Of a stretch of 58,523 nucleotides of DNA, positions 1-49,354 are shown piece by piece. The stretch lies in the IMG/VR virus record IMGVR_UViG_3300042691_003858, positions 1-58,523 of that record, one strand, 5' to 3'. Position 1 is the stretch's first letter. Each line of letters starts with the position of its first letter. Source of the DNA: a virus. Below the pieces are notes generated by a model. It was given only the letters and a program-made list of their open reading frames with translations, had not been told where the DNA came from and did no database searches. The translations under genes were made by a program, and so were the position numbers.

Positions 1-271
1 TGTCGTCAGTGACGCGGTACGGGTGGCAGTTCTCGAAGTCGATGTCACCGTGGGTCTTCATACGCGCATGCCAGATGCAGTCGCGTCCCTTGGCGTACTG
101 GTTGTAGAAGTCCACCATCTCGTCGGCGTTGGTCGGCAGAACCTTGTAGACGTGGACCTTGCCTCCCTCGGCGTACATGACGCCGAAGCCGTCCGAGTTC
201 CTGCTGTAGACGTCCTTGATGAAGTCCTCGGTGAACTCAGTTTTCTTGGGTTGTTGAACGAGCAGGCACAT
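1..271 (-). CDS. Class II glutamine amidotransferase-like protein (3' end outside window)
   Basis: The reading frame starts at ATG 271 and is still open at the window edge, giving about 90 N-terminal residues. It begins MCLLVQQP, so removal of Met exposes a Cys nucleophile as in Ntn-type class II amidotransferases. Further family marks are NSDGFGVMY, then IWHARMKTHG, then ENCHPY. These match the N-DG-G, H-R-THG and N-HP blocks of the glutaminase fold, which releases ammonia from glutamine or hydrolyses a related amide. The start follows the amidoligase stop with no gap, and a GGAG lies about 10 bases upstream inside the amidoligase gene, so the two are translationally coupled. The C-terminal part and any fused domain cannot be seen. 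The family call is strong; the substrate is unknown. Confidence 0.8.
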   Translation of the reverse strand, partial: MCLLVQQPKKTEFTEDFIKDVYSRNSDGFGVMYAEGGKVHVYKVLPTNADEMVDFYNQYAKGRDCIWHARMKTHGDIDFENCHPYRVTDD

Positions 272-1774
272 TTATGCAATCTCCAAACGGTTGTGAACGT
301 ATGCCCGCAGGGTCTTGGTCTCCTGCGGGATCTTCTTGTCGATGAACTCGAGGAAGCAGTCAGCCTTCATGTCGTTGCAGCCGTAGCCTGAGTAGGGCTT
401 GGAGAACTCCACCATGGCGTTGGCGAACTCGATGGCCGCGATGACCGACTCGTACTTCAGCGTGCCCTTGAACACGCGGAACTCGATGGTGCTGCGCGGC
501 GTGACGTTGACTGCCTCGTAGCGGTCTTGTGACCTGTGTGCATTGCCGATCTTGGACTTGTCCTTGATGCGACAGTACCCAGTGGCAGCCTGACCGTAGC
601 GACGGGCGATGGCGGTGACGAGAGACTCGTTCTCGGGTGCGTTGATGAATGCGACGATCTTGCCAATCTGGAGGGCGGAGAGCCCACTGCGGCTGATGTG
701 AACGTGCAGGCCACAGGTCGTGGTCTGATGGCTCTTCATGCCCTTGGTGAGGGACCTGTTCTGAAGCCACTGCCACAGTTGCCTATGCGCAGGCAGGCTC
801 ATGGGCTGAGTGATGATCTCGAATCCGTGGCTGAGGCTGCCGTCGGACTCAAAGAACACCTTTTGGCCCTTGATGCCGGCGTTGACGGCTTTGTGGATGA
901 TCGAAGCCTTGTCTTCGCGGTCGTAGCCGCTTTGGACCTCGACCTCCAACTCCACGCCGATGTAGCGCTTGTTGGTGTTGGTCCAGTCATCGTGTTGCAG
1001 GCGCTGGTCACGCTTGGACGAGTGGTAGGACTGGATGACGAGCTCGACATGCTCGTAGTTGCAATGCGCCCAGCCGTCCAGGTCTTCGTTGTAGCAAAAG
1101 TTGTCGTCATGCTCGCTGACGAGTACATGATTGCCGCCCTCATCCCTGGCGTTACGAGCCTCGCTTTCGCTCACGTATGAGTCGTAGTACTCAGACCAGC
1201 GGAAACTGTCATCAACGCATTGGCGGCAGATCCGGGTGTCGTCCCAGGTGCCGGTGATTGATTCCGCCCACTCCCACTCTTCGCAGTGGTCGCAGCGCAC
1301 GATGTCTGCGTTGTCCATGAGCCATTCCATAGCGGCGTCGGAGTCTTCGCAGTCGGCGGCTGCCGAGATGAAGTCCCGAAGCGAATGAGTGCTTCTGGGG
1401 ATGGCGTTCTGCAACTTGTTGACAATGAAGTACGACTCGGCGCTGTACTCGCTCAACTCGTAGTTGTCGACGACGTCTCGGAACTCAGCGACCAATGCCT
1501 GCAAGACGTGGGACACAAACCGCGACTCAGCATGCGCTCGGGCATAGGCATCGCTGTCCGACTTGACGGCCGCCTCATCCCGCGCATAACGCGCGTCATG
1601 TCTGGCATCGTCCAGAGATACAAGCAGCCTGTTGCACGCCAAGACGGTCTTGGTGCGATTGCTGCGAGCCATACGCATGATGGTTTTGGCTACGCTGGCT
1701 GTTGTTGTTGACTCCTCGCCGCTGATGAACTTGTCGATCTTGCGGGAGAAGTAGCGCGAAAGCGTTATTCGCAT
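272..1774 (-). CDS. Amidoligase (glutamine synthetase-fold COOH-NH2 ligase) with zinc-ribbon-like insert
   Basis: The protein has 500 residues. Residues 272-280 read IGVELEVEV, the metal-binding ExExE strand of the amidoligase family (Pfam Amidoligase_2). ESDGSLSHGFEIITQP follows at 309-324, CGLHVHIS at 354-361 and TIEFRVFKGT at 429-438. These are the successive active-site strands of this glutamine synthetase-like fold, which joins a carboxylate to an amine using ATP. The N-terminal half is helical and carries CxxC pairs at 161/164 and 183/186, probably a zinc ribbon. The start at 1774 has GGAGGTTCAC before it; the in-frame ATG 18 bases upstream lacks a Shine-Dalgarno site. The adjoining glutamine amidotransferase probably supplies ammonia or trims a glutamyl peptide. 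The true substrate (peptidoglycan peptide, protein tail or metabolite) is unknown. Confidence 0.85.
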   Translation of the reverse strand: MRITLSRYFSRKIDKFISGEESTTTASVAKTIMRMARSNRTKTVLACNRLLVSLDDARHDARYARDEAAVKSDSDAYARAHAESRFVSHVLQALVAEFRDVVDNYELSEYSAESYFIVNKLQNAIPRSTHSLRDFISAAADCEDSDAAMEWLMDNADIVRCDHCEEWEWAESITGTWDDTRICRQCVDDSFRWSEYYDSYVSESEARNARDEGGNHVLVSEHDDNFCYNEDLDGWAHCNYEHVELVIQSYHSSKRDQRLQHDDWTNTNKRYIGVELEVEVQSGYDREDKASIIHKAVNAGIKGQKVFFESDGSLSHGFEIITQPMSLPAHRQLWQWLQNRSLTKGMKSHQTTTCGLHVHISRSGLSALQIGKIVAFINAPENESLVTAIARRYGQAATGYCRIKDKSKIGNAHRSQDRYEAVNVTPRSTIEFRVFKGTLKYESVIAAIEFANAMVEFSKPYSGYGCNDMKADCFLEFIDKKIPQETKTLRAYVHNRLEIA

Positions 1775-1790
1775 GTGAACCTCCAAATGC

Positions 1791-1812
1791 AAAAAGCCCG
1801 CACTTGGCGGGC
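1791..1812 (-). terminator. Rho-independent terminator just ahead of the amidoligase
   Basis: On the minus strand GCCCGC-CAAGT-GCGGGC is followed by TTTTT. The T-run ends 10 bases before the GGAGG of the amidoligase gene. It would end transcripts from the small genes at 1874-2777, yet it abuts the next ribosome site, so amidoligase expression needs readthrough or control of termination. Confidence 0.75.
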
Positions 1813-1835
1813 AGGTTGATGATGGAAAAGGGAAA

Positions 1836-1876
1836 GCGGTGGCCCGCCCCCCGTTAGGGGCGGGACAACGCGACTA
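1836..1876. repeat. Hairpin element copy 1 (GCGGTGGC ... GGACAACGCGACTA)
   Basis: A perfect 8-bp stem CCCGCCCC / GGGGCGGG (1843-1850, 1857-1864) is flanked by GCGGTGGC and GACAACGCGACTA. The same flanks surround a different hairpin at 4216-4257. It lies directly after the coding part of the 65-residue gene, whose TAG stop is inside the right flank. It is probably a transcript-end or RNA-stability element of the minus-strand units. Confidence 0.55.
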
Positions 1877-2071
1877 GCGGGTGGCTACAAAGAGGATGAC
1901 GAGAGAAGCCAGTGCGTACACGGCCCACGGCCAGTACTTAGGCTTTCGTTTGGAGATGAGTGCGAGTTGCAGCCTGTCCATGTCCAGGCTGGACTCGTAG
2001 CGCCGAGGCGGCTGGTAGTACTTGCCGATCTCGACCTTGCCGGTGTTGTAGATACTGCCTGTGTTCTTCAC
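1874..2071 (-). CDS. Small membrane protein, 65 aa, unknown function
   Basis: I do not recognise a family. A soluble basic N-terminal half ends in RKPKYWPWAV, followed by one C-terminal hydrophobic segment (about residues 46-63, ending LASLVILFVATR). This suggests a tail-anchored inner-membrane protein facing the cytoplasm. ATG 2071 overlaps the stop of the upstream 125-residue gene by four bases (ATGA), so it is the last gene of a three-gene unit 2777-1874. A hairpin element lies immediately downstream. Confidence 0.6.
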   Translation of the reverse strand: MKNTGSIYNTGKVEIGKYYQPPRRYESSLDMDRLQLALISKRKPKYWPWAVYALASLVILFVATR

Positions 2072-2445
2072 AGTGACACCTCCACGCTAAACGTGGCTTC
2101 ACGCAGGGCGTCGCGCACCGCGCTTTCAAGGTCGCTTTGGCTGTTGTTTTCAAACTCGTCGCACACGCTGTCGTACCTGTCGTGGTCGTAGGTGCTGGCA
2201 TGCGCGTCGAGCGCCTCCTCGATCCTGTTGTCGATCAGTTCCTTGATCTTGTTGAGATCGGTGTTGAGCGGCATACGCAGCTCCAGTGCCGCCACGCGCT
2301 GCTTGAGGTTGTCGATGTCGGTTACGAACTGAGCGGTCGTATTGGCGTAACTCTGCAAGAGGGCGGTCAGGCGGGCGTCTACAGCGGCGTTGATGGCCTT
2401 GTCGAACGCCTCTCTGAGGGAGTGGATCAGGATGTCGTTGTTCAT
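2068..2445 (-). CDS. Predicted coiled-coil protein, 125 aa, unknown function
   Basis: No family is recognised. The sequence is almost entirely helical and acidic, with a heptad-like stretch around DIDNLKQRVAALELRMP and further amphipathic helices around the LIDNRIEEALDAH segment, suggesting an oligomeric coiled coil. Its start overlaps the stop of the 111-residue gene by four bases, and its own stop overlaps the start of the 65-residue gene by four bases. The three genes are thus one translationally coupled operon. Confidence 0.6.
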   Translation of the reverse strand: MNNDILIHSLREAFDKAINAAVDARLTALLQSYANTTAQFVTDIDNLKQRVAALELRMPLNTDLNKIKELIDNRIEEALDAHASTYDHDRYDSVCDEFENNSQSDLESAVRDALREATFSVEVSL

Positions 2446-2777
2446 GGCGCCATCCCTTGCATTTCAAAGATGTTGCCGAAGCGGACTTTGGCCCTGACTT
2501 CCTCGACTGTGGTATTGCAGTCCACGCTGTCGCCCTCCTCGTTGCAGCCCACGACCAGTCCCTTGCCCGCCAGGGGGTTCGGGTATTCCTCGTGCATGAA
2601 GAAGTGAGTCGGGTTGTGCAGCAGGCCTTCGTCGTCAACGAAGATCCCGTCCATGCGCGAGATCCGAGCGCAGTCGAAGCAGTCAGCCTCGATCAGCGTG
2701 TAGATCTGCCTGTAGTCGCCGTTGTAGTCGACCTCCGTGACCGTCTGGTCGTACGGGTTGATGAGTATCGCTTTCAC
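2442..2777 (-). CDS. DUF3846-like hypothetical protein, 111 aa
   Basis: The protein begins MKAILINPYDQTVTEVDYNG and contains FVDDEGLLHNP, then PLAGKGLVVGCNEEG. This arrangement of a short N-terminal strand, a 'DDEGLL' turn and a 'P-AG-x-LVxG' strand resembles small phage and plasmid proteins of the DUF3846 type, of unknown role. The start is GTG at 2777, with AGGAG five bases upstream. An ATG two bases upstream is in another frame and meets TGA at once. It is the first gene of a three-gene unit and carries the CAATATCTACATG leader shared with the gene at 3624. Confidence 0.6.
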   Translation of the reverse strand: MKAILINPYDQTVTEVDYNGDYRQIYTLIEADCFDCARISRMDGIFVDDEGLLHNPTHFFMHEEYPNPLAGKGLVVGCNEEGDSVDCNTTVEEVRAKVRFGNIFEMQGMAP

Positions 2778-2787
2778 ATGAACTCCT

Positions 2788-2800
2788 CATGTAGATATTG
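2788..2800 (-). promoter_or_regulatory. Leader motif CAATATCTACATG, copy 1
   Basis: CAATATCTACATG is followed by AGGAG and the GTG start of the 111-residue gene. The same 13 bases precede the start at 3624. In both places the motif lies between an upstream terminator-like hairpin and the first gene of a new unit, as expected for a promoter -10/leader or a translational control site. Confidence 0.45.
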
Positions 2801-2822
2801 AAACGTGAGTGGCCACTAGTCG

Positions 2823-2849
2823 AAAAAATAGGCGGTCGAGCCGCCTATT
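2823..2849 (-). terminator. Rho-independent terminator after the HTH gene
   Basis: On the minus strand a 9-bp stem AATAGGCGG / CCGCCTATT with a 5-base loop is followed by a T-run. It lies 18 bases past the stop of the gene at 2868-3185 and closes the unit 3624-2868. Confidence 0.85.
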
Positions 2850-2867
2850 CTTCCGAGTGACCTGATC

Positions 2868-3185
2868 TCACACGGTGGGTTGGATGTAGGGCGACTTGCG
2901 CCCTGGTTCTGGGACGAGGTGAGCCCTCGTCGAGTAGCGACAGATCTGGTCCACAGTCCGACTGGTGAGGTCGAGGTTGTGGTCCTGTCCCAATCGCTGG
3001 GCAATGATCCTGCAAGTCCAGCCGCACTCCTCGCGAAGACGGCGGATTTCCAGTATCACCTCGTCGGGGTACTTAGGGGCTGGACTGCCCCGACGATTGG
3101 GTTTGGGCTTTTCCACTTTGGGTGTGGGTGTCCACAGTTTGTTGATGAGAGACGAACGTATGTAGTAGAGGCTTGCGTTCTTCAA
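2868..3185 (-). CDS. Putative helix-turn-helix DNA-binding protein, 105 aa
   Basis: After a basic, proline-rich N-terminus (about residues 18-36) comes YPDEVILEIRRLREECG, then WTCRIIAQRLGQ and a second helix around SRTVDQICRY. This looks like a helix-turn-helix in which 'IIAQRL' and 'SRTVDQI' form the turn and recognition helices, as in small phage regulators. It is the last gene of the unit 3624-2868; its ATG overlaps the stop of the 62-residue gene by four bases, and a strong terminator follows. It is one of few regulator candidates in the window, but the target is unknown. Confidence 0.55.
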   Translation of the reverse strand: MKNASLYYIRSSLINKLWTPTPKVEKPKPNRRGSPAPKYPDEVILEIRRLREECGWTCRIIAQRLGQDHNLDLTSRTVDQICRYSTRAHLVPEPGRKSPYIQPTV

Positions 3186-3370
3186 AACGGCACCTCTTGA
3201 CTACGAGACTCGAGTATCGCGTCCCACTGGTACTGGTCGGCGTACTCTTTGAGGCCTAAGGCGTAACCGTCTCGGTACGCCAACTCATCGGACTCTGCGG
3301 GCATCAGGCTCATGCCGTGATGGTAGCCACGGGCATACGCCCTAAGTAGGGCAAGCGTGAACTCGTTCAT
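3182..3370 (-). CDS. Small hypothetical protein, 62 aa
   Basis: No family is recognised. The sequence has two similar helices with a G-Y spacing (ARGYHHGMSL and YRDGYALGLKEYADQY), a pattern common in very small phage accessory proteins. It overlaps both neighbours by four bases, so it is coupled with the 85-residue gene upstream and the helix-turn-helix gene downstream. Confidence 0.6.
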   Translation of the reverse strand: MNEFTLALLRAYARGYHHGMSLMPAESDELAYRDGYALGLKEYADQYQWDAILESRSQEVPF

Positions 3371-3624
3371 TGCCTGCCTCCCTGGTGCATGAGCCCATGG
3401 CTGATCCAGTGCGCCGTCATGTCGGCAACACGGAAGTCAGTGCATTCGAACTCGCCCTCGAGCCCGATCTCCTCGGGGGAGTGCAACTCCCCCTCCATGT
3501 CCTCGATGTAGATGCAGAACAGGTCTGCACCCTCGCGGTCGCAGTCAACGAGTTCCTCGAGCCCGTTGGACTCAACCAACTTCATCGCTCTTACGATGAC
3601 CGAACAGCAGTCTTCAATGTTCAT
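3367..3624 (-). CDS. Small acidic hypothetical protein, 85 aa
   Basis: No family is recognised. The protein begins MNIEDCCSVIVRAMKLVES and is strongly acidic, with EDMEGELHSPEEIGLEGEFE near the middle. ATG 3624 was chosen because GGAGG lies four bases upstream, preceded by the CAATATCTACATG leader also found before the GTG at 2777. The longer in-frame extension to 3717 runs through that leader and a hairpin and is not expected to be coding. It is the first gene of the unit 3624-2868. Confidence 0.6.
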   Translation of the reverse strand: MNIEDCCSVIVRAMKLVESNGLEELVDCDREGADLFCIYIEDMEGELHSPEEIGLEGEFECTDFRVADMTAHWISHGLMHQGGRQ

Positions 3625-3634
3625 GTGACCTCCA

Positions 3635-3647
3635 CATGTAGATATTG
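3635..3647 (-). promoter_or_regulatory. Leader motif CAATATCTACATG, copy 2
   Basis: This is identical over 13 bases to the motif at 2788-2800 and is again followed by a GGAG site and a start codon. It lies one base downstream of the GCCGGG hairpin at 3649-3664. Confidence 0.45.
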
Positions 3648-3648
3648 A

Positions 3649-3685
3649 GCCGGGAGAACCCGGCAACGAGGAATCTGCCCAGGCA
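3649..3685 (-). terminator. Hairpin pair between transcription units
   Basis: GCCGGG-AGAA-CCCGGC (3649-3664) and the near-palindrome TCTGCC-CA-GGCAGA (3672-3685) lie between the stop of the 148-residue gene and the 85-residue gene. There is no clear T-run, so the terminator reading is tentative. Confidence 0.4.
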
Positions 3686-3719
3686 GACGGGGTCTCCCCC
3701 ATCCACCTGGGCGTCACAC

Positions 3720-4166
3720 TCAGAAGGGCGCCGGCTCCACGGGCTTGTCGGCCTCAGCCGGGATCTCCGGCTTGGCGTACGTCAGCGTGCGCGTCTCCTT
3801 GAACACCGGAGCCGATACGCGGCGCTTGAGGTCGACCAACATGTTGGCCAGGGCAGCCTGACGCTGCTCAGCCGACCCAGCACGCTCGACGGCGTCCAGA
3901 TGCTCAGCCACGCTGAGATGCAGGCTGAGGTGACGGGCAGTCGCCCCGGGCAGGCGCTTCGGCGCCCAACCGAGGTTGATGCCGATGGTGGCCAACTTGG
4001 CCTGCTGCGCCTCCCGAGCGGGAGCCATGTTCAAGGCGACCTCGTTGGCCTCGATGGCCTTGGAGGCAGCCTCACGAGAGGCGAATGCGTCGGGGTGCGA
4101 CGCCTGGGTCAGCCCTACGCGGGCGAGATAAGCGACTTGCTTGTCGGTGGGCATACGAACGTCCAT
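3720..4166 (-). CDS. Hypothetical protein with TDKQVAYL-type N-terminal motif, 148 aa
   Basis: The N-terminus MPTDKQVAYLARVGL followed by FASREAASKAIE is a short helical motif ('T-x-KQ-x-x-L-x-x-LG', then 'S-x-x-A-S-x-x-I') found at the ends of several plasmid and phage proteins, where it probably mediates protein or nucleic-acid contacts. The rest is helical, with a proline-rich tail. ATG 4166 has GGAG six bases upstream. The function is unknown. Confidence 0.6.
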   Translation of the reverse strand: MDVRMPTDKQVAYLARVGLTQASHPDAFASREAASKAIEANEVALNMAPAREAQQAKLATIGINLGWAPKRLPGATARHLSLHLSVAEHLDAVERAGSAEQRQAALANMLVDLKRRVSAPVFKETRTLTYAKPEIPAEADKPVEPAPF

Positions 4167-4215
4167 GATGGTCTCCTTGACTGGACAGGTTGAGGAAAGA
4201 GAGAAAAGAGAAGAG

Positions 4216-4257
4216 CGGTGGCACCCTTCTCCTCAGAGAAGGGGGACAACGCGACTA
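4216..4257. repeat. Hairpin element copy 2 (GCGGTGGC ... GGACAACGCGACTA)
   Basis: An 8-bp stem CCCTTCTC / GAGAAGGG (4224-4231, 4236-4243) has the same flanks as copy 1, while the stem sequence is entirely different. Preserved pairing with changed bases argues for selection on RNA structure. It follows the 47-residue gene on the minus strand. Confidence 0.55.
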
Positions 4258-4271
4258 AACCCGGAGCGCGG

Positions 4272-4415
4272 TTAGCCCCGAGCCACGAGGTCGTAAGAGC
4301 CGTCCCGGTACAGACGGGCGAAGTTCGCCTCGTCGTAGTACAGGTCGACCCACAGCGCCCTGTAGGGCCAGTGCCGAAGGCTGATGCGCCTGAGCGCAGC
4401 GAATAGGTCAGTCAT
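4272..4415 (-). CDS. Small hypothetical protein, 47 aa
   Basis: The frame runs from ATG 4415 to TAA 4272 and encodes MTDLFAALRRISLRHWPYRA and a further 27 residues with LYYDEANFARLYRDG. The ATG overlaps the TGA of the 63-residue gene (TGATG), and a GGAGG lies about nine bases upstream, both supporting real translation. No family is recognised. The hairpin element copy 2 follows. Confidence 0.55.
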   Translation of the reverse strand: MTDLFAALRRISLRHWPYRALWVDLYYDEANFARLYRDGSYDLVARG

Positions 4416-4606
4416 CAGAAGTCCTCCGTGGCGTCAGCCAGCCTGCCGGCTAGATAGCCGACGACGAACAGCAGAGCCAGCGCCGCAAGGCCTGGGACAG
4501 GCTCAATGCGTTGCGCAATGCCAGCGCCAGCCAGGATGACCATGCCGAACAGGCAAACGGCCATCGTCAGCCACGCGGTTACATGAGTGAGGTATCGGTA
4601 GTTCAT
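4415..4606 (-). CDS. Small two-helix membrane protein, 63 aa
   Basis: There are two hydrophobic segments, about residues 10-31 (AWLTMAVCLFGMVILAGAGI) and 37-54 (PGLAALALLFVVGYLAG), joined by a short polar turn. This predicts a hairpin inner-membrane protein with both ends in the cytoplasm. GGAG lies eight bases before ATG 4606. A terminator ends directly upstream of that ribosome site. Possible roles include superinfection exclusion, but nothing specific supports one. Confidence 0.6.
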   Translation of the reverse strand: MNYRYLTHVTAWLTMAVCLFGMVILAGAGIAQRIEPVPGLAALALLFVVGYLAGRLADATEDF

Positions 4607-40387: not shown

Positions 40388-43300
40388 ATGTCGGCGTATG
40401 ACGACCTCTTCGGTCCAGTCGGACCCAAGACCTACAAGTCCTCCGACGAGGCGTACCGACAAGACGTAGTCCCCCGCGCCAGGGGCGGCGCTATGGATGA
40501 CCTGTTTGGGTCTTCCGCTGCGCCGCCGGCTGCGGCTCCTGCCGCTCCCGCTCCAGCCCCTCAGGGCGACTTCGGGCGCGGCTTCGGCATTGCAGGCAAG
40601 CAACTCAAGCAGACTGGCTACGGCGCTGCCGCGCTGATCGGTGACACCTTTGGTTCGGACGGCCTCAAGCAGTGGGGCCTCAAGGGCTACAAGGAAGCCG
40701 AGAAGGAGATCCAGGCTGTCAGCAAGGACACGGACTCCTTCACCACCGCCATCGACAAGGGGGCCGGTTCTGTCGTTGACTGGCTCCAGTACGCCGCAGG
40801 CTACCTGTCAGGACAGGCCGTAGAGACTCTTGCTGCCGCTGGCGCTGGCGCTCTGGTGGGCGGTGCCATGTCAGGCCCTGCCGCGCCCGCAGGGGCCGTT
40901 GGAGGCGCGGTCGCCGGGGCCATCAACAGGACTGCCGTCCAGACCGGGGTCAAGGCTGCCATCGGCAAGATGGTGGACAAGGAAGCCGAGCGGCTCGTCC
41001 TCAAGGGCGTGGCCGCTGACGTCGCTGCTCAGCAGGCTGCCAAGTCGGTCTACCGTGGGATCGGCGCCCGGGCCGGCATGACGCTGGTCAACGCCACCCA
41101 GGAACTGGGCTCCATCTACGGAGAGGCGGTTGACGAGGCCAAGGGCGGAGACGTCAGTCTCGCCCGTGTCTGGCTGTCTGGTATCGCTGCCACGGCGGTG
41201 GACTCCTGGGCCGACTCCAAGGCGCTGGGCGGCATCACCGACGCATTCAAGGGCAAGACCCGTGGCGCCAGCATCGCCGCTGAGGCGTTCAAGGGCGGAC
41301 TGCGTGAGGGCCTGACCGAGGGCGTGCAGACGGCCATCGAGCGTTTTGGCGCCACCAAGGATCTGGCCAGCGCAGAGGCGTTCAAGGAGTACATCGACTC
41401 GGCAGCCATCGGTGTCCTGGGCGGCACCGTCACTGGTGGCGTCAAGGGTGCGGTGTCCAAGTTGGCTGTCCCCGGACAGCCGGCAGACCCCAACGTGGAT
41501 CCGGCCAACCCGGACCCGACCGGGCTTCCCAAGCCGCCTTCCGGTCGCGGGCGTGACCCCGAGTCCGACGCGCCCTTGCTTCTCAAGGATGACGTCTGGT
41601 CGACTCTCCAGAACGCTCCCATGATGGCCGCGATGTATGCGCGTGGCGACGACGCCCAGCAGAAGGCCATCATCAAGGCGGTTGACCGCGCCAACCTGCG
41701 TGGCGAGTTCGAGGCCGCGTTCAAGGACCGTGCGCTCATGGAGCGCAACGAGAAGATCGTCAGCGAGTACCCCGACCTGATCTCCAACACGGTTGCCGGC
41801 ATCCAGATGTTTGCCGACACGATGCCGTGGCCGAAGTTCAAGGTGGACTTCCGCACCACTGGCGGCACCATAGCCGACGAGAACCGCGCCATTGCGCCGC
41901 CGGATGACGACGCCATACCCGCTGTCCAGAAGACTGAGGTCGAGCCCGCTGGCGATCCGTCTGTCGCGCCCACGACCGAACTGCCTGAGCGCCCTGGGCC
42001 TCAGGATGAAGAGCGCAACACTCTCATCACCAAGTTCAACGAGATCGGCACCCAGATCTTCGGCATGAACCCTGGGCAGACCCAGGACGCCAAGTTCGAC
42101 TGGGCGATGAACCAGTTGGTGCAGACCCATGGGTTCAGCAACAAGGACGCCAGGGCGATCCTGACAGGCTCGATGAAGCCGGAGGCTGTAAACGCAACAA
42201 CCAAAACGGACGCGACGCCAAACGAAACAACCGAAACGGGCGACATCTCCAGCGACCCGCTGTACCCAGAGTTTGTCCGCCTGACCAGGGCGACCTCCGC
42301 CGCCGAGAAGCAGTCTGACCCCAAGGACTGGACCCCAGAGCAGCGCAAGGCTTACGACGACGGAGACTGGCGGACCTTCTCTCGGCTGCGCGGGTACACC
42401 GAAGAGGAGATCAAAGACTACGGCGCCTATATGGACGTAGCCAACAAACTCATCGCCAAGTACGGCGCCGACATCGTGATGGGCGAAGAGATTGCCCTGT
42501 TGGAGGAGTCGGCAGAGCGGCCGCAAAATGCCGCCAACACCGCGTCGACAAAGGCCCCGTCCGTCAACCTGCCAGAGGATGATCGTGGCGCACCGCCTTC
42601 CACTCGCACTACCAGAGAAGAACTGAAGGACGCGGCAGCCAACCTGTTCGACGTCCTGACCGACATCACTGGCGCCAAGCAGAACATCACTGGCCAGCGG
42701 TACACGGTCAAGGATCTGCCCGCCGCCCTTACCAGGGTGATGGCTGCGCTCATCAAGGAAGGCGTCAACTCCTTCAAGGAGGCCAGCGCCCAACTGATGC
42801 AGCGCATGCGCGAGTCCAAGGACTGGGCGCCCCTGGCTGACAAGGTGGACCAGGGCATGCTGCTGAAGGCGTGGAATGAGGCTGGGGGCGGAAAGCCTGA
42901 GGCCAAGCCCGCCACCAAGAGTACTCAGACGCTGCCAAAGGTGGAGGGCGCTGACCCGGCCTCCACGCTTCGCTCACAGACCCGCGCTGTCAAGGGCTCC
43001 AAAGGCGACACGCTCATCACCAACCAGAACCCGATCAACGCCAGATCTTTCTACATGACCCCAGAGGAGGTCAAGGAGAACCAGAGGGCTGCTGAGGAAC
43101 TGAAGTCTGGCGAGACCGAAGAGGTCAAGGGAGAGAAGGCTGCCGATGGTGACGACTTCGCTGGCAAAGCCATGTATCCCGTCAAGCCCGAGAACGGTGA
43201 GGCCAAGAAACGCACAGAGTCTGCCAAGCCCTACTACAGGCAGGCGCTGTCCCAGGCCAAGACCCTATTGAACGGGCGTCTGGCGTACGTCGGCAAGGAC

Positions 43301-46300
43301 CCCAAGCCGGTGAGGCTGAGAAGCGACATGCTTGACAGCATGGGCTTCGACATGTTCAAGGTTCGACTTGCAGATGACAGCGACGGCAGAGGTAAGAAGG
43401 CTCTGGCCAAAATCAAGTCGGACATGAACAAGGCGGTCCAAGCCTTCGAGAACAAGAAGAAGGAAGACCCGAAGCCGCCGGTACTGCGTGAACAGCAGTC
43501 ACTTGCCCTGCCTCCCGTGGCGCGTAAGGCTGATCCGGCCCCGATTGTCAAACTCAAGGGGATGATCGAGGGCTTCATCAGGAACATGACCAACGCCTCG
43601 TACTACGAGGACACGATCAGGGTTCTGAATGAGCAACTTGCCAAGATCGACGCCCGACTGAATGAGGTCAATGAGTTTCAGACGGACAGCGGGGAGACCT
43701 TCCGTGTCCGCAGCAGGGGCGACAGCAACCCCGGCATGTGGGGCCTCCAAGACGAGAACGCCTACGACCGCTTTGACAGCGGCATGGTGTTCGACAAGGC
43801 TACCCCCAAGAACGCGCTGCTCGACCTGCGCCGCAAGATTGCTGATGACCTCAAGGCTGCTCGTGAGCAGTCCGTGAAGGGTCGCGCACGTCTGTACCGA
43901 CTCGGCATGGACAGGCTTGGTGACTACATCGTCCGTCGCAGCCAGGGCGCCATCAGAGGCGGTGTCGATCAGGAACTGGTGCTGGCCGCAGTGCGTCCGT
44001 ACCTTGTCGGGACCTTCGCCCTGAGAGAGGCGAACTCCAGAGTCGCAGATGACGCAGCCGAGACCAATGCGGCTCTTGCAGAGGCCAACCTCAACCTTGC
44101 CCAAGAAGACATGTTCGAGGGCGAGAGGGTTGCCATCGGCATCCTGTCCGACTTCAAGGCCAAGAAGATCGGGAAGTCTGAACTCCAGGTCCTGGAGACT
44201 CGCGGCATACGCGAGGGCGACTTCACCTTCACCGACCTCTTGCGTGCTTACCGCGCAATGGGCATCAGCCCAAGCCAGTCGCTGTACGCCTGGACCAAGC
44301 ACTTCTCCACCCGCATCCGTCTGAGGGACTACGTCGCCCAGAACGGCGGGCGTGCAAGCGCGGCAGACGCCTACTTTGCCGACATGCTGTCTGCCAAGGC
44401 GCTGATGAGCCCAGAGGAGTTTGCTCGACGCTACGGCGCTCAAGAGCAGAGACAACTTGTCCTCTGGCAGGAGTACCGCAGCAAGGTGCTGGCCAGGAGG
44501 CACATCACGCCCAGGATGCGTGACCCTCTCAAGAAAGACCCGCGCAAGGTCTTTGACGGCTTCCTGTTCACCCGCATCAGCCTGGAGGAAGCCCGCAACC
44601 CGGACACCATCCAGAGTACAACTCTGCGCCTGACCTACAAGAGCCTGTTCGACAACCTCGAAGAGGCGTGGTTCTCCGATCTGGCGGCTGCGCTGCGACT
44701 GCGTCCCGACTTGGAGTCGGAACTGTTCAACCCGGAGCCCGATTTCTTCTATAGCCAGTCTCTGGGTGAGCGTATTCAGGCTATTCAGGAAAGCGGTCAA
44801 CTCTCCACTCCTACTGCGGCTGTGGCAGCAGATCCTGTCATCTCACCGCAGGAGCGTGCTGCGTTCAAGCAGTGGGTAGAGCGCATCAAGGCCGGCGTCA
44901 TGAAGCAGGCCGAGGTCATGGCCCGCTCGCCGTACTTCGAGGCGCTGCGCAACGACCCCAGGCTGGAGGCTGTCCGCACCGCAGAGGGCTCGCCGATGCT
45001 GGCCAGTACGCCGGAGATTGACCCGGACCCGGGCAGGTTCAGCGAACTCGAAGGGCCGGTGGTGAGCGTCAAGAGCGCCCGTGAATTCGAGCGTATGGCC
45101 AGCGCCTGGAAGCCCCGCCGGGTTGCCATGAGCGCCGACCTTGAGGCCAACGGTGGCCGTGAGGTGCGGCTAGCCGGATACGAGGCCCTGTACGTCAAGG
45201 TAGCCAACGGCGAACTCCAGGCCGTTCAGGAATTCCTCGAGTTCAACGCCCGCTTCAAGGCGTACGGCAATGGCATGGTTGACCTGGAGACTGGCGAGAT
45301 CCTGAGCGTCACAGATGCCGAGGAACTGGCGTCGGACGCACTCCAGAGCGTGATGATGAACGCTCAGATGCAGTCGGCTCTTGACCAGTACGGCAACGAG
45401 ATGAGCGCCTTCGGGGCTCGGGTCCAGGGCGACGAGAAGGTAGTCCGCACCATTGAGGAAGCGGCGGAGAGAGACGCCCAGATCGGCGGCGCCGCCAATG
45501 TCTCGATGGAAGACCTGTCCTCGGAAGAGCAGATCCAGGAAGAGGCCCTGTCCGAGTTCGACATGGAGTCGATGGAAGATGGCTCCGAGGTCGAGACTGG
45601 TGCAGCAGAGCAGGGCCCTGCGGCCCAAGACCAGGAAGAGAAGGCGCCCAAGGGTGGACGGGTCCCGCGCAGCCTGATCCCCGGCATGGAGTACCGCTTC
45701 CGTCGCGGCCCCGCCTGGGACGTTGTCACTGCTGCGATGGTGCAGGACATCGTCAATCAGATCACCAGCACCTGGAAGAACGCCCCCAACATCATCGTCA
45801 TTCCCAACGCTCAGCATCTTCCTCCCGAGATCCGGGAGAGGGTGCTGGAGAAACTTGCCGGGGATGGCGCCAAGGGTCTGTACCACGACGGCACCGTCTA
45901 CCTGTTCTCGCAGCACCTGACGGGAGAAGCCGACGTCGAGTTCACTCTCTTCCACGAGGCGTACGGTCACCTTGGCATGCGTGCCCTGCTGGGCGAAAAG
46001 TTCGACCAGTTCCTGGAGACCGCCTACCGGGTGAACGCCAAGGTCAAGGCCGAGGTCGACGCCCTGGTTGCGACCGGGATGCCGAAGTTGGAGGCCATTG
46101 ACGAAGTCCTGTCAGACATGGCGGCTGAGAACCGTCAGGTCGGGATCGTCAAGCAGTGGGTGGCCAAGGTCATCGCCGGCCTACGCGAGATCGGTATGAA
46201 CTCGGTGGCGGACTTCGTGTCCAGACTGACCAACGCCGAGATCGCCATGACCCTGTCTCAGGCGCGTGACGCTGCCCGCAACGGCGTCAGCCCTGCCATG

Positions 46301-49300
46301 AACGGGGCGCCTGACGACATCCGCTTCAGCCTCAAGCATCGCCCGCCCTACGAGATCTTCTCGACCTCCGGCAACAGGACCACGGCGTACGCCCGGTACA
46401 ACCCGGCGACCGACACCTGGGCTGTGTTCCACACCTTCGAGTCAAGCGACATCCGGGACAACTACACCGGCTTCGTCAGCGACAAATACGACGACGTCGT
46501 GAACTTCATGCGCCAGCAGGGCAAGGTGGACTACCGCACCCGCTCGGGCATGTACATAGACGACAAGATCGTGGGCGACATGGTGCGCCTGACGGGGGTC
46601 GGCAAGAGGGAGGGCAAGATCGCCAACTGGTGGCGCAACTTGGTCATCGGGTTCCAGAACGAATACCTGCCGGTGTTCGAGATGGTGGACTACCTGCGCG
46701 GCCTGGGGCGCATTGACGACCGCGTGGACGTCAAGACCGCCCTGCTGCTTTACGAGGGCCGCACCGGGTCCAAGTTGCAGAAGTTCCGCCGCGAGTACGT
46801 TGACCCGATCATGCGGCTGGTCAAGGAGGCTGGCGCACTCGGAGCCACCGAGGCCGATGTCAACCTCTACATCACGGCCCGCCACGCTGAAGAGCGCAAC
46901 CGCGCTGTTGCGGCTATCAACAAGAACATGCCGGACGGCGGCTCTGGTCTGATGACCACCGTAGAGGGGATTGAGAAGTACCCTGAACTGAACGCTTACA
47001 AGATCCTGGAGGACCTCAAGGCCAGCCCTGCCGGCGCGAAGTTGGAAGAGATCGGGCTCAAACTCGACCAGATGAGCGAGGCCAAGATCAACTACATGGT
47101 GAGGACCGGGCTCATCACCAAGAAGGCGGCGCTGAAACTCCAGAAGAACTGGAACGAAGAGAAGCAGCGCTGGGATGGCTACTCCCACTACGTCAACCTG
47201 TCCGGCGTGATGACGCCTGACGGCCAGGACACCGTCGACCAGTACGACGATCCGATGGCCATTGCTGGTGGCAGCAAGTTCAACGCTCAGAAGGGCAAGG
47301 AGCGCAGGGCCTTCGGTCGTGGCGCTGGCAACCTGTCACCCGATGTCCTGGGGCGCACCATCCAGTCCTTCGAGGCCCAGTTGATCCGAGGCCAGAAGAA
47401 CGAGGTGGCCAAGAAGGTCCTGGCCCTGATCGAAACCAACTACGACCCGGCCTTCGCGGTCATCAACAAGATCTCGTTGCGCCGCCAACTGAACCCCGAG
47501 ACGGGTCTGGTTGAGGAGGTGGTGGACGAGGGCTACATGGCCCGCAAGGACGTGATGGTGGCCAAGGTCGCCGGCATCCCTGTGACCATAGAGTTCAAGG
47601 ACACCAGCCGTGGGTCGTTTGCTGAGGCCATCCACGGCTACGTTGCGCCGCGTGAGTCCAACAGCGTCATGGAGTGGATTGGCAAAGCCAACCAGATCTT
47701 CGGCCAGATGCTGACCACCTGGAACCCGGCCTGGGTGTTCGTCAACTTCTTCCGTGACGTCCAGACCCTGTACTTCAACTCGGCTGCTGACGGGCGCATC
47801 ACCAAGCAGATGGCCCGCGACATGCTGAAGAACCTGTGGCCGGCGCTGAAGGCTGCGTCTTACATGGCGTTCGAGGGCAAGTTGAACATAAACGCCGACC
47901 CCGAGATGGTCCGCATGTTCAAGGAGATGCGCGACTCCGGCGGCATGACCACCTTCGCCAACTTCAAGGATTTGGAAAGCCGGGTCAGGGACATCCAGGT
48001 TTCCATGAGCGGAAAGACTGGCGTTGTTGGCAAGGCCAGGGCGTTCCTGGACCTCATGGAGAAGTTCACTCTGCCCGTTGAAATTGCCTCCCGGCTTGCC
48101 GCCTACAAGGTGGTGCGGGACAACGGATGGACCAAGGAGCAGGCTGCCACCTATTCCGTTGAGGTGACGGTCAACTTCAACCTGCGCGGTAACCAGCGGT
48201 GGGTGCGCCAACTGTTCGTCTTCTTCAACCCGGCAGTCCAGGGCACCGAGAAGTTGTACCGGCTGGCCAAGGAGAACCCCAAGAAGATGGCCATGTACGC
48301 CGGCATGTGGGCTGGCCTGGGCATGATGTCCACCGTCATTGCCCGCCTGTTCGGTGACGACGACGAGGAAGACAAGATCCCCGCCCTGGACAAGATCTCG
48401 CCCTACAAGCGTGCTACGTCGGTCGTGCTGTTCCCTGGCGTCCCTGGCGCCGCATTGCCCATCCCCTATGGCTGGAACGCCCCGTACTCCTTTGGCACCT
48501 TCCTGATGGACTCGGTCATGGGTGTGCAGCCCTGGACTACCTCGATCAAGCGGGCAGCCAAAGCGTCCGCCGAGGCGATGCTGCCCCCGCCCATCATGCA
48601 GGGCGCAGACTCCAAGACCATCGAGGGCAAGATCGCCAAGACGCTGGCGCCTACCCTGGGCCTGCCGGTCATCGAGTACGCCCTCAACGAGAACAGGTAC
48701 GGTGCCCCGATCTACAAGGGCAAGAGCCCGTTCGATGACGCCGAGGTGCCGGACGCCCAGAAGTACTTCCGTGGCGTGTCCCCGATCTCTCGCGCCATCA
48801 CTGACGGGCTGACCTCAGCCTTCGGCGGCAACAAGTACAAGGCTGGCGCCATCGACATCAACCCGGCCACCATAGACTTCCTGATCTACTCGTACACCCC
48901 GGGCGTGATTGCGGAGACCTACAAGTTGGCGTCCACCGGGGTCAGGGCGGCGCGAGGCGAGACGATCAAGCGCACCCCGCTGCCGATCATCGACAGGTTC
49001 ACGGCGCCCATCAACCAGGGCTACGAGGCTGGCGCCTACCGCCGCGCTGCCGAGATCGTGGAGACGGCCTACAAGGAGTACAGCAACTCCCGGGACCAGG
49101 AGAGGCGCAAGGAGATCCGGGAGGAGTTCCCGCGCCTGTCGGCGGCCCATGCCACCATCGCCTCTGCCAAGAGGGATCTGCGCGACATCAACAAGCGCAT
49201 CGCTGACCTCGACACCAAGCCGATCTCGTCAGACGAGAAGGTCAGGCGCACCAATGAACTGCGGAACCGGGAAGAGCAGATCTACAAGCGGGCCACCAAG

Positions 49301-49354
49301 AGACTGATGGAGGCTGGCCCACAGGTCAGCGAGGCCATCCTCGCCAACGAGTAA
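40388..49354 (+). CDS. Giant polyvalent internal virion protein, 2988 aa
   Basis: The N-terminus has a Pro/Ala linker (about 37-60) and Ala/Gly-rich hydrophobic segments (about 130-190). A central metallopeptidase-like domain (about 1770-1930) has FTLFHEAYGHLGMRALLG with His1856, Glu1857 and His1861, and a downstream acidic helix EAIDEVLSDMAAE near 1902. The C-terminal third resembles the LPD38 region of large polyvalent phage proteins: NFFRDVQTLYFN near 2455, FVFFNPAVQGTEKLYRLAKE near 2613, a hydrophobic helix near 2635-2655 and SPYKRATSVVLFPGVPG. It is probably ejected with the DNA and acts in the host. No lytic transglycosylase motif was seen. Confidence 0.82.
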   Translation: MSAYDDLFGPVGPKTYKSSDEAYRQDVVPRARGGAMDDLFGSSAAPPAAAPAAPAPAPQGDFGRGFGIAGKQLKQTGYGAAALIGDTFGSDGLKQWGLKGYKEAEKEIQAVSKDTDSFTTAIDKGAGSVVDWLQYAAGYLSGQAVETLAAAGAGALVGGAMSGPAAPAGAVGGAVAGAINRTAVQTGVKAAIGKMVDKEAERLVLKGVAADVAAQQAAKSVYRGIGARAGMTLVNATQELGSIYGEAVDEAKGGDVSLARVWLSGIAATAVDSWADSKALGGITDAFKGKTRGASIAAEAFKGGLREGLTEGVQTAIERFGATKDLASAEAFKEYIDSAAIGVLGGTVTGGVKGAVSKLAVPGQPADPNVDPANPDPTGLPKPPSGRGRDPESDAPLLLKDDVWSTLQNAPMMAAMYARGDDAQQKAIIKAVDRANLRGEFEAAFKDRALMERNEKIVSEYPDLISNTVAGIQMFADTMPWPKFKVDFRTTGGTIADENRAIAPPDDDAIPAVQKTEVEPAGDPSVAPTTELPERPGPQDEERNTLITKFNEIGTQIFGMNPGQTQDAKFDWAMNQLVQTHGFSNKDARAILTGSMKPEAVNATTKTDATPNETTETGDISSDPLYPEFVRLTRATSAAEKQSDPKDWTPEQRKAYDDGDWRTFSRLRGYTEEEIKDYGAYMDVANKLIAKYGADIVMGEEIALLEESAERPQNAANTASTKAPSVNLPEDDRGAPPSTRTTREELKDAAANLFDVLTDITGAKQNITGQRYTVKDLPAALTRVMAALIKEGVNSFKEASAQLMQRMRESKDWAPLADKVDQGMLLKAWNEAGGGKPEAKPATKSTQTLPKVEGADPASTLRSQTRAVKGSKGDTLITNQNPINARSFYMTPEEVKENQRAAEELKSGETEEVKGEKAADGDDFAGKAMYPVKPENGEAKKRTESAKPYYRQALSQAKTLLNGRLAYVGKDPKPVRLRSDMLDSMGFDMFKVRLADDSDGRGKKALAKIKSDMNKAVQAFENKKKEDPKPPVLREQQSLALPPVARKADPAPIVKLKGMIEGFIRNMTNASYYEDTIRVLNEQLAKIDARLNEVNEFQTDSGETFRVRSRGDSNPGMWGLQDENAYDRFDSGMVFDKATPKNALLDLRRKIADDLKAAREQSVKGRARLYRLGMDRLGDYIVRRSQGAIRGGVDQELVLAAVRPYLVGTFALREANSRVADDAAETNAALAEANLNLAQEDMFEGERVAIGILSDFKAKKIGKSELQVLETRGIREGDFTFTDLLRAYRAMGISPSQSLYAWTKHFSTRIRLRDYVAQNGGRASAADAYFADMLSAKALMSPEEFARRYGAQEQRQLVLWQEYRSKVLARRHITPRMRDPLKKDPRKVFDGFLFTRISLEEARNPDTIQSTTLRLTYKSLFDNLEEAWFSDLAAALRLRPDLESELFNPEPDFFYSQSLGERIQAIQESGQLSTPTAAVAADPVISPQERAAFKQWVERIKAGVMKQAEVMARSPYFEALRNDPRLEAVRTAEGSPMLASTPEIDPDPGRFSELEGPVVSVKSAREFERMASAWKPRRVAMSADLEANGGREVRLAGYEALYVKVANGELQAVQEFLEFNARFKAYGNGMVDLETGEILSVTDAEELASDALQSVMMNAQMQSALDQYGNEMSAFGARVQGDEKVVRTIEEAAERDAQIGGAANVSMEDLSSEEQIQEEALSEFDMESMEDGSEVETGAAEQGPAAQDQEEKAPKGGRVPRSLIPGMEYRFRRGPAWDVVTAAMVQDIVNQITSTWKNAPNIIVIPNAQHLPPEIRERVLEKLAGDGAKGLYHDGTVYLFSQHLTGEADVEFTLFHEAYGHLGMRALLGEKFDQFLETAYRVNAKVKAEVDALVATGMPKLEAIDEVLSDMAAENRQVGIVKQWVAKVIAGLREIGMNSVADFVSRLTNAEIAMTLSQARDAARNGVSPAMNGAPDDIRFSLKHRPPYEIFSTSGNRTTAYARYNPATDTWAVFHTFESSDIRDNYTGFVSDKYDDVVNFMRQQGKVDYRTRSGMYIDDKIVGDMVRLTGVGKREGKIANWWRNLVIGFQNEYLPVFEMVDYLRGLGRIDDRVDVKTALLLYEGRTGSKLQKFRREYVDPIMRLVKEAGALGATEADVNLYITARHAEERNRAVAAINKNMPDGGSGLMTTVEGIEKYPELNAYKILEDLKASPAGAKLEEIGLKLDQMSEAKINYMVRTGLITKKAALKLQKNWNEEKQRWDGYSHYVNLSGVMTPDGQDTVDQYDDPMAIAGGSKFNAQKGKERRAFGRGAGNLSPDVLGRTIQSFEAQLIRGQKNEVAKKVLALIETNYDPAFAVINKISLRRQLNPETGLVEEVVDEGYMARKDVMVAKVAGIPVTIEFKDTSRGSFAEAIHGYVAPRESNSVMEWIGKANQIFGQMLTTWNPAWVFVNFFRDVQTLYFNSAADGRITKQMARDMLKNLWPALKAASYMAFEGKLNINADPEMVRMFKEMRDSGGMTTFANFKDLESRVRDIQVSMSGKTGVVGKARAFLDLMEKFTLPVEIASRLAAYKVVRDNGWTKEQAATYSVEVTVNFNLRGNQRWVRQLFVFFNPAVQGTEKLYRLAKENPKKMAMYAGMWAGLGMMSTVIARLFGDDDEEDKIPALDKISPYKRATSVVLFPGVPGAALPIPYGWNAPYSFGTFLMDSVMGVQPWTTSIKRAAKASAEAMLPPPIMQGADSKTIEGKIAKTLAPTLGLPVIEYALNENRYGAPIYKGKSPFDDAEVPDAQKYFRGVSPISRAITDGLTSAFGGNKYKAGAIDINPATIDFLIYSYTPGVIAETYKLASTGVRAARGETIKRTPLPIIDRFTAPINQGYEAGAYRRAAEIVETAYKEYSNSRDQERRKEIREEFPRLSAAHATIASAKRDLRDINKRIADLDTKPISSDEKVRRTNELRNREEQIYKRATKRLMEAGPQVSEAILANE

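Follow-up and report, generated by a model that had tools for sequence, protein, structure and literature searches.

A minimal amidoligase-glutaminase gene pair in a temperate phage, a candidate glutamine-dependent amidotransferase

Results

The locus and its completion

At the left end of the window (the whole stretch of DNA analysed here, a 58.5-kb IMG/VR virus record of 58,523 nucleotides), the minus strand carries an amidoligase gene followed by the beginning of a gene for a class II (Ntn) glutamine amidotransferase-like protein, hereafter called the glutaminase (Table 1). The TAA stop codon of the amidoligase directly abuts the ATG TGC of the glutaminase, leaving the zero spacing reported in the initial annotation.

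Table 1. Features of the amidoligase-glutaminase locus. Positions refer to the window, except where contig L009 is named.
Feature	Position	Strand	Remarks
Class II (Ntn) glutamine amidotransferase-like gene, first 90 codons (begin MC)	1-271 (codons 2-271)	-	Cut by contig end
Complete glutaminase gene	L009:7504-8478		324 aa
Amidoligase gene	272-1774	-	500 aa; ATG at 1774, stop TAA 274-272
GS-fold catalytic domain, residues about 262-500	275-991	-	Structural matches and conservation in 68 sequences
H357-V-H359, presumed GS-type GxHxHxS metal/ATP motif	698-706	-	H357 invariant, H359 at least 90%
Zinc-ribbon-like Cys4 motif, C161-X2-C164-X18-C183-X2-C186	1217-1294	-	Conservation
Likely Shine-Dalgarno GGAGG of the amidoligase	1780-1784	-	Sequence
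Terminator-like hairpin, GCCCGCCAAGTGCGGGC + TTTTT	1796-1812	-	About 20 nt between its end and the amidoligase start; conserved position in clade
Second terminator-like hairpin, same intergenic region	1831-1852	-

Searching IMG/VR with the amidoligase protein, we identified a 19.4-kb contig (L009; IMGVR_UViG_3300031951_001603) with 100% identity to the window across 7774 bases. The next 4604 bases of this contig (7775-12378) are missing from the window and join its positions 1 and 58523, after which the contig is again identical to the right end of the window. Since L009 bridges both ends, the genome appears to be circular or circularly permuted, with a size of about 63 kb; with about 4.6 kb absent between its ends, the window falls short of the full genome. 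The initial annotation had suggested recovering the rest of the glutaminase from flanking DNA, and L009 supplies the whole gene, whose product has the glutaminase fold (see below). Right after it lies a gene for a 176-aa protein (L009:8639-9169, plus strand) with no Pfam or PHROG match. Its conservation at this position is confined to the close clade (L010-L016, L091-L095), and it could be a third member of the group.

The window encodes a terminase, a head-tail adaptor, a major head protein, an internal virion protein, tail fibres, a primase/helicase and a tyrosine integrase, and the carrier is a temperate phage with integrase. A DNA-level comparison of window positions 1-25000 with INPHARED phages did not find a near relative, and PADLOC reported no defence family. 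The genome also encodes a 2988-aa protein with an LPD38 large polyvalent protein domain (window 40388-49354, plus strand).

Sequence and structure of the two proteins

The amidoligase matches the Pfam family PF12224 (Amidoligase_2) with an E-value of 1e-8 and 35.8 bits, against a cut-off of 22. The protein comprises a helical N-terminal region (residues about 1-155), a Cys4 zinc-ribbon-like segment (158-190) and the catalytic domain. An AlphaFold2 model based on 68 viral relatives (mean pLDDT 86.6) has the glutamine synthetase (GS)/glutamate-cysteine ligase fold, matched over residues 266-500, with VIA-align Z scores of 13.4 to YbdK (1r8g), 12.6 to plant glutamate-cysteine ligase (2gwc) and about 12 to glutamine synthetases. 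We assigned the protein by its fold because PDB sequence searches gave nothing convincing: the single sequence as query had no match, and the profile produced weak, unconvincing zinc-finger/RING/HypA-like matches alone, all in the ribbon region. Among the 68 viral relatives, residues G273, E275, E277, D311, E319, G355, H357, R392, N423, E431 and R433 are invariant, and the ExE, HxH and ExR residues are invariant or at least 90% conserved. The HVHI residues highlighted in the initial annotation, whose H357-V-H359 is presumably the GS metal motif, are kept. Its ExExE motif stands in part: the first two glutamates, E275 and E277, never vary, and E279 is constant in the close clade only. The predicted activity is ATP-dependent amide-bond formation.

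The complete glutaminase exceeds the cut-off of PF13230 (26 vs 23 bits); its 90-aa fragment alone stays below, with 20.5 bits. Across 61 sequences, M1, C2, H68, R70, T73, G75, H83, P84, N96, G97 and D111 are invariant. These include the N-terminal Cys nucleophile following Met, consistent with the Cys2 described earlier, as well as the glutamine-binding/oxyanion residues R70, T73, N96-G97 and D111. The glutaminase profile aligns to GlmS across HxRxxTHG ... NxHP ... HNG (HTRWATHG, NAHPH and HNG in GlmS), and D111 was paired by eye with D123 of GlmS. In the structure model (pLDDT 85.9), residues 2-191 form an Ntn-hydrolase fold, with Z scores of 12.0 to EgtC (4zfj), 11.7 to GlmS (1xff) and 10.9 to PurF; residues 195-241 are modelled with low confidence as a linker that leads into a small helical region. 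The PF12224 match, the GS fold, the complete 324-aa glutaminase and the phage genes of the window together bear out the original proposal of an amidoligase coupled to a class II glutaminase in a phage.

The cysteines C161, C164, C183 and C186 had been noted as a zinc-ribbon-like insert of the amidoligase. All four are present, and at least 90% conserved among the 68 viral relatives. Considering relatives with a recognisable catalytic motif, at least two CxxC precede it in 131 of 140 viral and 78 of 79 bacterial sequences. Since the segment is kept in nearly all relatives, it is a hallmark of the subfamily and not a local insert. The segment is predicted to bind zinc; the spacing of the cysteines varies from 18 to 20 residues among phage ligases. 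Two phage pairs (L005 and L006) lack the ribbon altogether. We considered whether the ribbon is limited to ligases with an adjacent glutaminase, and rejected this: L007 and L008, which have neither ribbon nor glutaminase, fit such a rule, but L005 and L006, with glutaminase and no ribbon, break it. In phage LUZ24 the glutaminase gp19 (L171:9902-11434) has a C-terminal CxxC...CxxC, whereas the subfamily of the window has its Cys4 on the ligase instead.

Expression of the pair

The terminator that had been described right before the ribosome site of the amidoligase is real as a terminator-like hairpin: one occurs at the matching position in 7 of 13 relatives, compared with 0.07 expected from base-composition shuffles, and across relatives the stems differ in sequence while pairing is kept. 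The separate control of expression deduced from this terminator was not upheld, however. Because the hairpin is separated from the start codon by only about 20 nt, and a scan for sigma-70-like promoters in window 1-4500 found none, a default stop with regulated read-through or antitermination is more likely than a promoter of the amidoligase's own. Similar hairpins lie directly before the ribosome sites of two other minus-strand genes (starts 4166 and 4606), and may therefore be a general trait of the early region; possibly the left operon is an antitermination-controlled early operon.

Coupling of the two genes across phages and bacteria

The initial annotation had suggested looking for the same gene pair in other phages, and it is present in many. 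Across IMG/VR and the phage records that we fetched, 158 viral ligase loci have a glutaminase, always downstream and on the same strand, mostly within 100 bases or overlapping; wider gaps are few (including L005, L006, L097 and L099). These viral counts include near-identical contigs, and removing near-duplicates leaves 90 distinct ligases and 82 distinct glutaminases. Another nine viral ligase loci have no glutaminase; in seven of them the contig stops about 120 bases or less from the ligase. The Clostridioides difficile phage AR1086-1 and a Microcoleus phage truly have no glutaminase nearby, and both ligases are remote and ribbon-less. In AR1086-1 (L007:4689-6878), the PF12224 amidoligase gene adjoins a gene for the RNA-repair protein RlaP (PF10127), with a KptA-like gene nearby.

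We also searched bacterial and archaeal genome contigs, using a ligase profile made from nine sequences. The best 80 loci comprised three from Polynucleobacter, a majority from Ruminococcus and other Oscillospiraceae, and a small remainder; a glutaminase called with an improved profile lay downstream in 78. Some of the bacterial pairs adjoin integrases or recombinases. The coupling of ligase and glutaminase is thus near-absolute, and is kept in phages and in mobile DNA of distant bacteria. Over 125 pairs, ligase and glutaminase distances correlate with r=0.87 (shuffled maximum 0.09), which fits a partnership but may also be given by linkage alone.

A gamma-glutamyl cyclotransferase is encoded in 11 of 46 related records. 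A simple replacement of glutaminase by cyclotransferase, or the reverse, was rejected for the subfamily of the window, as both co-occur in these records. In phage C75C1 (L006:5001-5897), whose genome also encodes an amidoligase, a class II glutaminase domain and a gamma-glutamylamine cyclotransferase (PF06094) are naturally fused.

Comparison with known systems

Pairs of this kind had been said to be known from comparative work, and the phage literature agrees. In phiEco32, LUZ24, tf, PSA-HP1 and other phages, a ligase/GATase pair belongs to a cassette predicted to alter peptidoglycan (PMC5498523, PMC3890496, PMC3517423). As in the window, a PF12224 amidoligase is followed there by a class II GATase. 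Unlike the window phage, the five-gene cassettes of the phiEco32/LUZ24 type also have a PF14395 COOH-NH2 ligase, an ATP-grasp protein and a gamma-glutamyl cyclotransferase. We did not find PF14395, which was detected in the LUZ24 and phiEco32 controls, nor the cyclotransferase family PF06094, in the window or the L009 record. LUZ24 gp21, used as query for a RimK-like ATP-grasp, matched phiEco32 and nothing in the window or L009 record, although a very divergent one could escape this search. The LUZ24 ligase has no N-terminal Cys4 segment, and LUZ24 gp18 was not recognised by the profile of the window-ligase subfamily.

Closer in organisation are phages MEP401 and MEP402 (Methylophilales), whose pair was published as an amidoligase (PF12224) and a GATase (PF13522) among auxiliary genes (PMC10580990), and the podovirus MW202733. 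All three have the same gene order, tight spacing, homologues of both proteins and a Cys-rich segment before the catalytic domain; they belong to other phage families, and full-length identity to the window ligase is 21-35%. Since the other cassette members are absent and the ligase is far from LUZ24 gp18, we place the pair in a ribbon-bearing two-gene subfamily that includes the MEP phages. Phage ligase/GATase pairs are already known, and that of the window is a divergent, minimal version.

Two cellular systems resemble the pair. MurT/GatD is likewise a two-gene operon of ligase and glutaminase, and the MurT ribbon (C205/208/227/230), mutation of which affected association with GatD (PMC6085368), has the same X2-X18-X2 spacing as the window ligase. 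The likeness is one of analogy only: MurT belongs to the Mur ligases and GatD to the class I (Triad) glutaminases, whereas the window pair combines the GS fold with a class II (Ntn) enzyme. In EgtA/EgtC, from ergothioneine synthesis, a GCS-type ligase works alongside a protein of the class II GATase fold. The glutaminase has its best structural match in EgtC, at a low identity of 12%; no other egt-type genes were recognised among the proteins scanned, in which the EgtA family is unmatched by Pfam.

Discussion

Amidoligase/glutaminase pairs have been noted in phages for years, and they are still annotated from gene neighbourhood alone. We tentatively favour, at slightly less than an even chance, the reading that the two proteins together make up a single glutamine-dependent amidotransferase, in which they would most likely form a complex. 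The Ntn glutaminase, with Cys2 as nucleophile, would hydrolyse glutamine and hand the ammonia to the GS-fold amidoligase; this would activate a substrate carboxylate with ATP/Mg and convert it to the amide, and the zinc-ribbon-like segment of the ligase may help to dock the glutaminase or the substrate. Such an arrangement would be MurT/GatD-like in organisation, a Cys4-ribbon ligase and a separate glutaminase in one operon, built from unrelated folds. Ammonia transfer is favoured by the fixed gene order, the tight coupling, the full glutaminase site, the MurT/GatD-like ribbon and the self-sufficiency of two genes, which is to be expected because the window genome has no other cassette enzyme. 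The substrate usually guessed in published work is a peptidoglycan or peptide carboxylate. The initial annotation had proposed a host peptide or a metabolite as target, in a lysogenic or anti-host trait; the analysis turned up no evidence pointing to a substrate.

Several observations argue against an amidotransferase. GS-fold enzymes can take free ammonia without a partner, which counts against the need for a glutaminase. Judging from the models, the glutaminase resembles GlmS no more than it resembles EgtC, which is a gamma-glutamyl hydrolase with no synthetase as partner; the ligase folds that appear nearest are those of YbdK and glutamate-cysteine ligase, enzymes that couple glutamate to amines and do not use ammonia. 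The presence of a cyclotransferase in about a quarter of related records, together with the C75C1 fusion, points to gamma-glutamyl chemistry. Finally, the ribbon has no constant cysteine spacing, and the L005 and L006 pairs do without it.

The same structural neighbours suggest another reading, in which the two enzymes would work in opposite directions: the ligase would decorate an amine or peptide with a gamma-linked glutamate or other amino acid, which the class II enzyme, as a gamma-glutamyl hydrolase, would take off again, giving a write/erase or protect/deprotect pair comparable to EgtA/EgtC or BtrJ/BtrG. The cyclotransferases of related records, and of the LUZ24, UFV-P2 and PSA-HP1 cassettes, would suit this chemistry. 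However, neither a cyclotransferase nor another pathway enzyme was found in the window genome and its close clade, an eraser would not need such strict one-to-one adjacency, and GlmS and PurF are nearly as close to the glutaminase as EgtC. We regard opposing activities of this kind as the main rival reading, less probable than the amidotransferase.

A further proposal is about the target and would suit either mechanism: the pair could be a module against superinfection that modifies the cell wall, with stem peptides in the peptidoglycan of an infected or lysogenic host receiving amidation or unusual amide linkages. The integrase of the window phage would be in keeping with this, and the prediction has been published for related cassettes (PMC5498523, PMC10580990, PMC11318856). 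That claim is itself predicted from gene neighbourhood; moreover, no wall-related gene was recognised beside the window pair, the other cassette ligases are absent, and the window-ligase profile does not detect LUZ24 gp18. For this phage we therefore consider a role in the cell wall doubtful. Least plausible is auxiliary nitrogen or amino-acid metabolism, with the pair merely freeing and re-using glutamine ammonia for infected cells, as put forward for Phage-ZRK32 and, as AMGs, for MEP401/402: hosts already own glutaminases and glutamine synthetase, and the Cys4 segment, the large N-terminal region and the strict pairing would be left unexplained, so that we think it very improbable.

Returning to the glutamine-dependent amidotransferase, a broader conjecture is possible, although we lean against it: an amidoligase-glutaminase complex that is widespread and mobile, uses the ribbon as docking piece and evolved as a convergent counterpart to MurT/GatD might amidate some carboxylate of host or phage, both in phages of Proteobacteria and in Ruminococcus mobile elements. 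Consisting of just two genes with intact active sites and near-absolute coupling, and accompanied by no accessory enzymes, the pair of the window is about the smallest version and thus a good object for learning what such pairs do. If it does amidate a cell-wall or protein carboxylate, this would be a new way for a phage to change its host.

Regarding the surroundings of the bacterial pairs, the Ruminococcus genomes (L172-L251) contain several copies each, some of them beside integrases, DUF960 genes or putative defence genes. The putative defence genes encode DNA methyltransferase, GHKL and Z1-like proteins in L182, and vWA and PP2C-like proteins in L211 (names partly assigned by eye).
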